Positions 13,472 through 22,273 of a stretch of DNA of 64,000 bases are shown in pieces. The stretch is from Hymenobacter taeanensis (GTDB taxonomy: Bacteria > Bacteroidota > Bacteroidia > Cytophagales > Hymenobacteraceae). The first letter of the stretch is position 1; every line of letters begins with the position of its first letter. The position numbers and the translations under genes are program-made. The stretch covers positions 4,815,663-4,879,662 of the forward strand of contig NZ_CP053538.1 in NCBI RefSeq assembly GCF_013137895.1, in the 5' to 3' direction. The notes under the pieces are model-generated. The model was not told the origin of the DNA. It saw only the letters and a program-made list of their open reading frames with translations, and searched no databases.

Positions 13472-14479
13472 TTACAACAGGCCTATCCCACTGCCGGCCA
13501 TTTCCTCGCGCACTGAGTCAGACCAGATGCTTACCTGCACCTCGCCAATATGCCCTTTGCGCAGCATAAACATGCACACCCGGCTCTGCCCAATGCCGCC
13601 CCCAATGCTCTGGGGCAGCTCATCCTTCAGCAGACGCGAGTGAAACGACAGTTCCTGCCGATCCGCGCAGCCGCGCAGGGCCAACTGGCGTACCAGAGCG
13701 TGCTTATCAACCCGAATGCCCATAGAGGAAACCTCAAAGGAGGTTTGCAACACCGGGTGCCAAAGCAGAATGTCGCCGTTCAAGCCACGGTATCCCTCTG
13801 CGGTTTCAGTGCTCCAGTCGTCGTAGTCGGGGGCGCGGCCGTCGTGGGGCTCTCCGTGGCTCAGCTCCCCGCCAATGCCCATCAGAAATACGGCGCCGTA
13901 TTGCTTCACGGCCTCATGTTCGCGCTCTTTGGGTGAGAGCGTAGGGTACTGCCTGAGCAGATCCTCAGCGTGCAGGAACGTGATGCGGCCGGGCAGCACA
14001 GGTGTAATTTCCGGATATTCAGCAGCAATGCGTGCCTCCGTGGTGCGCAGAGCCTCGTAAATGCGCTCTACCGTGGCTTGCAGAAACTCTACCGTGCGCT
14101 GCTCCCGCTGAATGTGCTTTTCCCAGTCCCACTGATCAACGTAGATGGAGTGAATAGGCGAGTAATCCTCATCGGGACGCAGGGCGCGCATGTCGGTCAG
14201 CAGGCCACGGCCGGCTTCAATACCAAGTTCCTGCAGGCGCACCCGCTTCCACTTCGCCAGCGAATGCACTACCACGGCCCGGCGCTCATCCAGCGCTTTA
14301 ATCGGGAAGCCAACCGGGCGCTCAATGCCGTTCAGGTCGTCGTTGATGCCGGTACCATCAAGCACGGCAATCGGCGACGACACTTTACTGAGCTGCAATT
14401 GTGAAGACAACTCTTTAGCAAATACCTCCTTCACAAAGCTGATGGCTTCTTCGGTTTTTAATAATTCCTGCGCAGTCAT
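13472..14479 (-). CDS. asnA: Aspartate-ammonia ligase (asparagine synthetase A)
   Basis: 335 residues from the ATG at 14479, close to the ~330 of E. coli AsnA. The frame extends 18 codons further upstream, but the family N-terminus (helix ISFVKEVFAKEL) fits the 14479 start. AsnA joins aspartate and ammonia to asparagine using ATP, through an aspartyl-AMP intermediate, and has the class II aminoacyl-tRNA synthetase fold. Family blocks visible in order are VVHSLAKWKR, MRALRPDEDYSPIHSIYVDQWDWE, GAVFLMGIGGELS, RAPDYDDWST, LNGDILLWHPVL, SSMGIRVD and SIGGGIGQSR. The gene is preceded by a 163-nt leader after an intrinsic terminator and, upstream of that, by an Asn-rich mini-ORF. I infer control by asparagine supply through transcription attenuation. 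Confidence 0.96.
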   Translation of the reverse strand: MTAQELLKTEEAISFVKEVFAKELSSQLQLSKVSSPIAVLDGTGINDDLNGIERPVGFPIKALDERRAVVVHSLAKWKRVRLQELGIEAGRGLLTDMRALRPDEDYSPIHSIYVDQWDWEKHIQREQRTVEFLQATVERIYEALRTTEARIAAEYPEITPVLPGRITFLHAEDLLRQYPTLSPKEREHEAVKQYGAVFLMGIGGELSHGEPHDGRAPDYDDWSTETAEGYRGLNGDILLWHPVLQTSFEVSSMGIRVDKHALVRQLALRGCADRQELSFHSRLLKDELPQSIGGGIGQSRVCMFMLRKGHIGEVQVSIWSDSVREEMAGSGIGLL

Positions 14480-14642
14480 GGCAATTATTTTTTTATGGTT
14501 TTTGGAAAGATTTTTATTTTCGAAAAGGCACACGAATTTCCTCCTCCCTGCCGGGAGTTTTTTTATGATTGGCTACTTGGCCACACGTGATACTTACTGT
14601 TCTGTTCCGGCTACCGACAAGGTTATCCAGCGCAGCAGGCAC

Positions 14643-14672
14643 AAAAAAAGCCTTCCAACAGGTGGAAGGCTT
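14643..14672 (-). terminator. Intrinsic terminator in the asnA leader (attenuator hairpin)
   Basis: A 10-bp perfect stem, AAGCCTTCCA (minus strand, 14672-14663) and TGGAAGGCTT (14657-14648), closes a 5-nt loop and runs straight into T7 (14649-14643). It lies between the leader peptide stop (14698) and the asnA start (14479), so it would cut off asnA transcription unless disrupted. An 8-bp hairpin with a 3-nt loop (14679-14697) sits just before it. Confidence 0.9.
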
Positions 14673-14727
14673 AAAAAGAAAATCAGTTTCTGATTTTTCA
14701 GTTCTCCAAAGGAGCAATAGCCTTCCA
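14663..14727 (-). promoter_or_regulatory. Predicted antiterminator pairing in the asnA leader RNA
   Basis: The RNA segment UGGAAGGCU at 14727-14719, inside the leader peptide's Trp-Lys-Ala codons, is an exact copy of the first nine bases of the terminator's 3' arm. It can therefore form a perfect 9-bp helix with the terminator's 5' arm (AGCCUUCCA, 14671-14663). If this forms, the terminator cannot. A ribosome paused on the Asn codons just upstream (14769-14737) would leave the segment free; a ribosome moving on would cover it. A further hairpin (14749-14730, 8 pairs with one U-G) sits within the Asn codons. The pairing is seen in sequence; the mechanism is inferred. Confidence 0.75.
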
Positions 14728-14784
14728 GTCCCGAATATTATTATTCGAGTTATTATTCTGGAGATTATTGCGGAAATGACGCAT
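14698..14784 (-). CDS. Asn-rich leader peptide of asnA (28 aa, attenuation)
   Basis: A 28-codon frame from the ATG at 14784 to TGA at 14698. The peptide opens MRHFR and then has eight Asn in the eleven residues 6-16 (NNLQNNNSNNN), followed by IRDWKAIAPLEN, so nine of 28 residues are Asn and the last codon before the stop is also Asn. It is far too short and biased for an enzyme. Leader peptides of amino acid biosynthetic operons (trp, his, leu, thr in proteobacteria) are likewise rich in the amino acid the operon makes. Here the downstream gene makes asparagine. It is followed at once by competing terminator and antiterminator RNA structures. I regard it as the sensor of charged tRNA-Asn. Confidence is limited only by lack of comparative data. 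Confidence 0.82.
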   Translation of the reverse strand: MRHFRNNLQNNNSNNNIRDWKAIAPLEN

Positions 14785-14815
14785 TATTGAGGTCTGTATT
14801 TCTGTCAGATGTATG

Positions 14816-14823
14816 CAAGTATA
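14816..14823 (-). promoter_or_regulatory. Candidate -7 box of the asnA leader transcript
   Basis: On the minus strand TATACTTG matches the Bacteroidota TAnnTTTG box at 7 of 8 positions, with TTAG (3 of 4 for the -33 TTTG) 20 nt upstream. Transcription would start about 25 nt before the leader peptide ATG. Confidence 0.45.
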
Positions 14824-21673: not shown

Positions 21674-21679
21674 CTTGAG

Positions 21680-21752
21680 TGATCCCGCTGGGATTCGAAC
21701 CCAGGACCCATACATTAAAAGTGTATTGCTCTACCAGCTGAGCTACAGAATC
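21680..21752 (-). tRNA. tRNA-Lys (anticodon TTT), copy 1
   Basis: 73 nt. On the minus strand the acceptor stem GATTCTG pairs with CGGGATC (with G-U pairs) and the discriminator is A. The D arm GCTCAGCTGGTAGAGC, the anticodon arm ATACA-CTTTTAA-TGTAT and the T arm CTGGG-TTCGAAT-CCCAG are all complete. The loop gives anticodon TTT, read as lysine. CCA is not encoded. A perfect promoter lies upstream and a terminator directly downstream. Confidence 0.97.
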
Positions 21753-22194: not shown

Positions 22195-22200
22195 CTTGAG

Positions 22201-22273
22201 TGATCCCGCTGGGATTCGAACCCAGGACCCATACATTAAAAGTGTATTGCTCTACCAGCTGAGCTACAGAATC
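22201..22273 (-). tRNA. tRNA-Lys (anticodon TTT), copy 2
   Basis: Sequence identical to copy 1 over all 73 nt, including the anticodon loop CTTTTAA. It has its own promoter and terminator, so the two genes are transcribed separately. Confidence 0.97.

Follow-up and report, generated by a model that had tools for sequence, protein, structure and literature searches.

A probable asparagine-responsive leader-peptide attenuator upstream of asnA in Hymenobacter taeanensis and its relatives

The asnA gene of Hymenobacter taeanensis is very probably controlled by ribosome-mediated transcription attenuation, in which asparagine would be sensed through the supply of charged tRNA-Asn to a short Asn-rich leader ORF. 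The elements on which this reading rests were located on the minus strand of the window, by which we mean the whole stretch of 64,000 nucleotides analysed here. Leader-peptide attenuation had been proposed in the initial annotation of this DNA, and comparison of sequences among relatives supports the proposal by three features: the conservation of the ORF and the terminator, the pairing of a copy of the terminator 3' arm that is maintained across reading frames, and a nearly fixed distance between the Asn codons and that copy.

The leader ORF (MRHFRNNLQNNNSNNNIRDWKAIAPLEN; 14698..14784, minus strand), identified by ORF calling and translation and kept in relatives, consists of 28 codons, nine of which specify Asn (positions 6, 7, 10, 11, 12, 14, 15, 16, and 28); the extent given to it in the initial annotation and the placement of eight of the nine Asn codons within codons 6–16 were exact to the base. 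Among the 723 short ORFs of the 64-kb window (20–60 amino acids, six frames), it was alone in having eight Asn within 11 codons, the runner-up having five per 11 codons and 344 having none. The Asn-run pattern AAYAAYAAYNNNAAYAAY was matched at a single place in the genome (4,879,662 bases), which is the leader, and the reversed control was matched nowhere. A DNA pattern of five Asn codons, searched for in 80 genomes of the family, was uninformative, because its matches were about as numerous as those of the reversed control in several genera. Every one of the 63 distinct leaders compared among relatives, as described below, carried 6–11 Asn codons, with a median of eight. AAT made up 381 of the 494 Asn codons in these leaders, compared with 243 of 717 in 28 long ORFs of the window, a preference that the low G+C content of the leaders may explain as well as regulation does. 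The gene that follows on the same strand (13472..14482) and is presumed to be regulated was confirmed to be asnA, encoding aspartate–ammonia ligase, by matches to PF03590 (E 3.8e-100) and TIGR00669 (407 bits, with a cut-off of 292.8), so that 9 of 28 codons of an ORF preceding asnA specify the amino acid that the gene product makes. AsnRS is also encoded in the genome, and tRNA-Asn can therefore be charged with free Asn.

The terminator scan also found the 10-bp intrinsic terminator that had been claimed to precede asnA. It has stem arms AAGCCTTCCA and TGGAAGGCTT (14648..14672, minus strand), a CCUGU loop, and a T run reaching approximately 14643, and it lies between the ORF and the gene. Terminator-like sites numbered four in 2.4 kb compared with 2.9 in shuffled sequences, and the terminator alone is therefore not significant. 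Within the ORF, sequence identity revealed a putative antiterminator strand, UGGAAGGCU (14719..14727, minus strand), which, as had been claimed, is an exact copy of nine bases in the 3' arm of the terminator and a perfect complement of the 5' arm, providing an alternative helix that excludes the terminator. To assess this helix at each locus, a p value was obtained from 100 dinucleotide shuffles of the sequence upstream, with a threshold of 0.05. The p value was 0.01 in this window and at or below 0.05 in 55 of the 63 leaders, compared with 1 of 28 control terminators, drawn from 23 loci, that precede asnA genes having no leader. No copy was found at p 0.05 in the other eight leaders (L035, L036, L041, L044, L047, L051, L077, and L115).

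The distribution of the leader was examined at the best 80 of 301 confirmed loci of an AsnA search. An Asn-rich ORF and a terminator, whose absence from close relatives would have spoken against the proposal, were both present at 42 of 42 Hymenobacteraceae loci (L001–L042, Solirubrum included; L016 and L024 judged by eye) among these best 80. They were also present at 14 of the 38 loci from outside the family (L043, L044, L046, L047, L049, L050, L051, L058, L061, L064, L065, L072, L074, and L077), all of which are MAGs titled Bacteroidales, Flavobacteriales, Flammeovirgaceae, and the like. The terminator started approximately 185–230 nt 5' of the AsnA match, with the exception of L065, in which it was much nearer the gene. 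The leader was not recognised at the other 24 of these 80 loci, including every Sphingobacterium, Agriterribacter, and Membranihabitans locus. In wider genome samples, it was present at 4 of 22 asnA places for the phylum, 6 of 24 for the class, and 14 of 24 for the order, counts that are not additive because the samples overlap (G000, G072, G166, and others); in the order sample, the leader accompanied 14 of 14 asnA places in the family of H. taeanensis and 0 of 10 in other families. Many asnA genes of the phylum are hence without such a leader. Within the genus, asnA was patchy, being present in 11 genomes and missing from at least 20 of those listed, and homologues of asparagine synthase B were matched in 61 of 61 genus genomes, 60 of them above the family cut-off.

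An AsnA tree was built by a quick method from 96 of 124 distinct proteins, after thinning had removed two thirds of those leader-bearing rows that are numbered up to L041. All 38 leader-bearing rows in the tree fell within a clade of 66 rows (SH-aLRT 97), together with 28 leaderless rows, and the leader label required 5 changes, compared with 30 for shuffled labels. The placement of L096, which is on a very long branch, was unsure.

For comparison of the leaders in sequence, 65 loci passed the filter, and two of them were dropped as doubtful: L066, a Rhinopithecimicrobium locus with four Asn (L084 has the same ORF), and L093. The remaining 63 distinct leaders formed alignment A1, which was unforced and from which L016, L024, and L082, with leaders recognised by eye outside the filter, are absent. 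The alignment of asnA upstream regions, which had been suggested as a check in the initial annotation, indicated that the short Asn-rich ORF is conserved and that the terminator stem covaries. In the terminator, 93.8% of cells were paired, a percentage that none of 500 column shuffles reached; 20 cells were changed on both sides compared with 4.9 in shuffles (0 of 500), and the doubly changed pairs were reached by 23 of 500. Four T columns 3' of the stem were invariant. In the helix between the copy and the 5' arm, 91.3% of cells were paired, which decreased to 36–61% when the copy was slid by one to three columns; 14 cells were changed on both sides, a count that 1 of 500 shuffles attained (shuffled value, 6.0), and 3 of 500 attained the covariation score. 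The control for the antiterminator is weaker than that for the terminator, in that 36 of 500 column shuffles attained its percentage paired, 91 its doubly changed pairs, and 126 its further pair types. The copy and both arms of the terminator change in concert, as demonstrated by variants such as GGAAAGG/CCTTTCC and GAGAGGC/GCCTCTC.

The spacing of these elements was nearly constant on one side of the copy. In the 63 leaders, the last Asn codon lay 15.6 ± 1.6 nt before the anchor base (15 or 16 in 52 leaders; range, 9–20) and the start codon 60.0 ± 3.4 nt before the copy, compared with 22.2 ± 10.7 nt from the copy to the stop codon. The anchor base was in frame 1 in 47 leaders, frame 0 in 15, and frame 2 in 1, and the copy is translated as WKAI, REAI, RKAI, GRLL, GKVI, or ERLF depending on the leader; WKAI, REAI, GRLL, and GKVI are one RNA read differently because the anchor base falls in different frames. 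The edge of a stalled ribosome reaches approximately 12 nt past the first base of the A-site codon. In most species, a ribosome on the last Asn codon would hence end just short of the copy, as judged from these distances. In this window, the anchor base is 13 nt from codon 16, 16 nt from codon 15, and 19 nt from codon 14, the 13-nt spacing being due to one codon fewer between the Asn run and the copy than in most relatives in A1. A ribosome at codon 16 may just touch the copy, and ribosomes at codons 14 and 15 would end short of it, so that the 13-nt spacing leaves the odds of attenuation unchanged, because the earlier Asn codons would still free the copy.

On the other side of the copy, the initial annotation had cautioned that a ribosome at the stop codon may clear it, and this is a real concern here, since the stop codon begins 27 nt past the first base of the copy. 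The stop codon lay within 18 nt past the anchor base in 27 of the 63 leaders (before the anchor in two), so that there the copy should remain covered by a ribosome that is terminating. In the remaining 36 leaders, including that of the window, in which the loop from the copy to the 5' arm is 46 nt, a ribosome parked in the loop would delay the pairing of the copy with the arm, presumably for long enough.

The region directly 5' of the copy is predicted to fold into an 8-bp hairpin, designated P1 (14730..14749, minus strand), which has Asn codons 14–16 in its 5' arm and loop and does not include the copy. The z score of P1 was below −1 in 60 of 63 leaders, with a mean of −3.25. The pairs of P1 were counted on per-sequence folds, which favour pairing, because the alignment of the P1 region alone set the 3' arm out of register. 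In these folds, the base preceding the last Asn run formed a G:C pair in 53 of the 63 leaders, C:G in 3, and T:A in 2, and was unpaired in 5. Where the first Asn codon of this run ended in T, that base was opposite A in 47 leaders, opposite G in 1, and unpaired in 6; where the codon ended in C (AAC), the C was opposite G in 8 of 9 and unpaired in 1 of 9. The pairing of P1 thus appears to be kept by compensatory changes, partly via synonymous Asn codons. Because the copy is outside P1, this hairpin is not a protector of the trp 1:2 type, and a classic trp-type attenuator was rejected on the ground that the control-codon region does not pair with the antiterminator strand. P1 is a candidate pause hairpin, and its likely role would be that of a pause element melted by the ribosome.

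The predicted folds of the RNA differed between the cut and the full-length forms. With the RNA truncated directly after the 5' arm and the last Asn codon occupied by a ribosome, the copy paired with the arm in 63 of 63 leaders; without a ribosome, it did so in 46 of 63, compared with 4.3% when the sequence before the arm was shuffled. In the full RNA at equilibrium, the terminator formed in all 63 leaders with the copy covered and likewise in all 63 without a ribosome, and in 59 of 63 it still formed when a ribosome occupied the last Asn codon, the window being among the 4 exceptions. Equilibrium folding consequently fails to account for the switch, which must be kinetic, since the terminator is favoured at equilibrium despite the stalled ribosome. 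The antiterminator would prevail by forming first. An untranslated leader may read through according to these folds, which is opposite to E. coli trp.

Upstream of the ORF, an element resembling a −7 box, TATACTTG (14816..14823, minus strand), was found by pattern match and is the likely promoter of the leader transcript; the Bacteroidota −7 consensus is TAnnTTTG. Of the 63 leaders, 36 had a TA..[TC]TTG box 5–60 nt 5' of their start, compared with 2.8 expected from mononucleotide shuffles, and the exact pattern was missing from the other 27. A sigma-70 scan, which covers promoters of the sigma-70 type, found none on the minus strand here. A transcription start downstream of 14643 is disfavoured by the presence of this promoter-like box directly 5' of the leader. 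Smaller predicted folds on the minus strand include a hairpin CUCC-UUU-GGAG in the antiterminator loop (14704..14714) and a hairpin AAAAUCAG-AAA-CUGAUUUU between the stop codon and the terminator (14679..14697), repeats like which are visible in the Hymenobacter rows of A1. A second conserved element (14565–14520, minus strand) was observed between the terminator and asnA and aligned over 44 rows (A3). It consists of an A run, a hairpin CUCCC/GGGAG with a stem that varies among Hymenobacter groups, and then conserved GUGUGCC or AUUGCC; it had no Rfam match in the scanned loci of the window and relatives, and its opposite strand is terminator-like in this window.

From these elements, the following sequence of events may be proposed. 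Transcription would begin just 5' of the leader ORF, which would be translated as it is made. When Asn-tRNA is scarce, the ribosome would stall while one of the Asn codons in the run occupies its A site, with its leading edge short of UGGAAGGCU (codons 6–15 here, codon 16 being borderline); the free strand would then pair with the terminator 5' arm once that is made, and RNA polymerase would continue into asnA. When Asn-tRNA is plentiful, the ribosome would pass the Asn run and cover the copy or occupy the loop between the copy and the arm, so that the copy would be kept from the arm, the terminator would form, and transcription would stop at approximately 14643. Points against attenuation include the equilibrium folds, the weaker shuffle control of the antiterminator, the eight leaders without a copy at p 0.05, the 13-nt spacing and the position of the stop codon in this window, the lack of a 1:2 protector, the pairing of copy and arm in 46 of 63 truncated RNAs that carry no ribosome, the many leaderless asnA genes of the phylum, and the occurrence of the leader without asnA in two genomes, as described below.

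Direct sensing of tRNA or a metabolite by the RNA, as by a T-box or a riboswitch, with the Asn-rich frame being incidental, would fit the existence of a terminator/antiterminator pair and further predicted hairpins; it is highly improbable, given that no T-box or riboswitch family was matched at the gathering score in the window or the loci of eight relatives, and that the distance from the Asn codons to the copy is nearly fixed despite the shifting frame of the copy, the Asn codons surviving synonymous changes. The best sub-threshold match at the site was Phe_leader (E 0.14; 23.7 bits, compared with 55), and the only matches at the gathering score in the whole window were two tRNA genes, none being at the leader. 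A pair of tRNA-Lys(TTT) genes was observed on the minus strand at 21679–21752 and 22200–22273, approximately 450 nt apart and with equal Rfam scores. It is just as improbable that the leader controls the translation of asnA or the stability of its mRNA rather than termination: an extra hairpin conserved in Hymenobacteraceae between the terminator and the asnA start would suit such control, and the four invariant T columns past the stem in the 63 leaders, the covariation of the terminator stem, and the distance of 165 nt from the terminator end to the asnA start in this window argue for termination.

The association of the leader with asnA was evaluated by use of RNA model R1, which gave 39 strong matches (E < 1e-17) in 150 genomes of the family. 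Among the 37 strong matches examined (G1013 and G1017 being outside these), asnA was present at the locus in 35 and absent in 2, namely, G842 and G938 (loci L207 and L208), in which tblastn found no trace of asnA. These two genomes keep the DUF3799-like neighbour, the leader, the terminator, the stretch after asnA, and the amine oxidase gene. Their leaders carry six Asn codons compared with the A1 median of eight. That the ORF encodes a small Asn-rich protein with a function of its own, in a separate transcription unit ended by the terminator, for which the retention of leader and terminator in these asnA-less genomes would speak, is the least probable of the explanations, because the part after the Asn codons varies in frame, sequence, and length (ORFs of 15–37 codons) while the copy stays complementary, and because of the near-constant company of asnA.

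In addition to its strong matches, R1 gave matches with weak E values in the 150 family genomes and in 325 genomes of the class, most of which were ordinary terminators, and we used the strong matches and those with a recognisable leader. Weaker matches included Thr/Ile-rich ORFs before aspartate kinase/homoserine dehydrogenase (thrA-like) genes (L211 and L213, with L210 by eye), a His-rich ORF before hisG (L231), and a Phe-rich ORF before a prephenate-dehydratase-like gene (L242; 163.8 bits, below the cut-off of 219), gene-family tests being run on L211, L231, and L242. The thrA-like gene of H. taeanensis itself (L223) is also preceded by a Thr/Ile-rich frame, ...PVIITGTTVTTTR*, read by eye. 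In view of these Thr/Ile-, His-, and Phe-rich leader ORFs, leader-peptide attenuation looks common in these bacteria, asparagine being one more case.

A tandem form was found at 14 loci (L043, L044, L046, L047, L049, L050, L051, L058, L061, L064, L072, L074, L077, and L116), where a second Asn-rich ORF (e.g., LNNNNLPP) and a second terminator lie between the first terminator and asnA. In all 14, proline follows within five codons of the last Asn of the second ORF, with Pro-Pro in 10, the prolines being placed directly at the putative antiterminator strand. A second attenuator helix was located by script near the expected place, 12–18 nt past the last Asn codon, in 10 of the 14, with p of 0.07 or less in 6 of these 10; in L043, L046, L049, and L116, the reported second helix was elsewhere, and a short copy was recognised by eye in L043 and L046. 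Some of the tandem loci (L116 and L046) branch early in the leader clade, where tree support is low, which suggests that Hymenobacteraceae lost the second attenuator. In the second ORF, a slow Pro-Pro or Pro-stop step could hold a well-supplied ribosome over the antiterminator strand, so that the terminator would form reliably, and a starved ribosome would stand a few codons upstream, leaving that strand free. We know of no proline brake of such a kind in other attenuators. It is a tentative and rather doubtful possibility that the double switch is ancestral, Hymenobacteraceae keeping the first part, and that the proline brake in the second makes the off state very low and the response to asparagine steep.

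Bacteroid-trp RNA (RF01692) is an attenuation-type leader. It is tabulated in PMC2864571, and leader attenuators have been suspected before amino-acid operons of Flavobacterium psychrophilum (PMC9723704), both being of the attenuation type and from the same phylum as the asnA leader; neither main text mentions asparagine, nor does that of PMC2864571 mention asnA. The trp and his leader attenuators, in the model described in PMC1183508, share with the asnA leader a short ORF enriched in codons for the amino acid that the downstream genes make, an intrinsic terminator, a mutually exclusive antiterminator, and, as proposed here, control by ribosome position, whereas the asnA leader would use Asn as the control codon, has its antiterminator strand inside the ORF, and leaves that strand unpaired by the control-codon hairpin. 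Salmonella mgtCBR has tandem attenuators answering ATP and proline and resembles the tandem form of the relatives in having two short ORFs and two attenuators per leader, one ORF being rich in proline codons; its two signals differ, whereas both ORFs of the tandem asnA leaders carry runs of Asn codons (PMC3641672). The S. aureus sORF7, an upstream ORF with an unusual abundance of Asn that has been put forward as a leader-peptide candidate, shares the richness in Asn, but its downstream gene is without known function and no link to asnA is made in the available part of PMC13009471. In the parts available of PMC2965389, PMC2864571, PMC7366714, PMC9723704, PMC4833913, PMC10219788, PMC8632094, PMC1183508, PMC13009471, and PMC1262725, asparagine codons are not linked to asnA, and no description of an asparagine-reading attenuator before asnA was found in the open-access literature searched, most subscription journals being outside this scope. 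What appears to be new here is hence the amino acid, asparagine, the type of attenuation itself being well known, and the tandem version with prolines might be a new variant.

If the proposed attenuation is true, leader-peptide attenuation would be extended to the sensing of asparagine, and the Bacteroidota would gain a compact switch some 180 nt long. The tandem version would be unusual in having two attenuators in series that read the same signal twice. Furthermore, the nearly fixed spacing between the last Asn codon and the antiterminator strand under a shifting reading frame would represent a natural ruler of the reach of a stalled ribosome.
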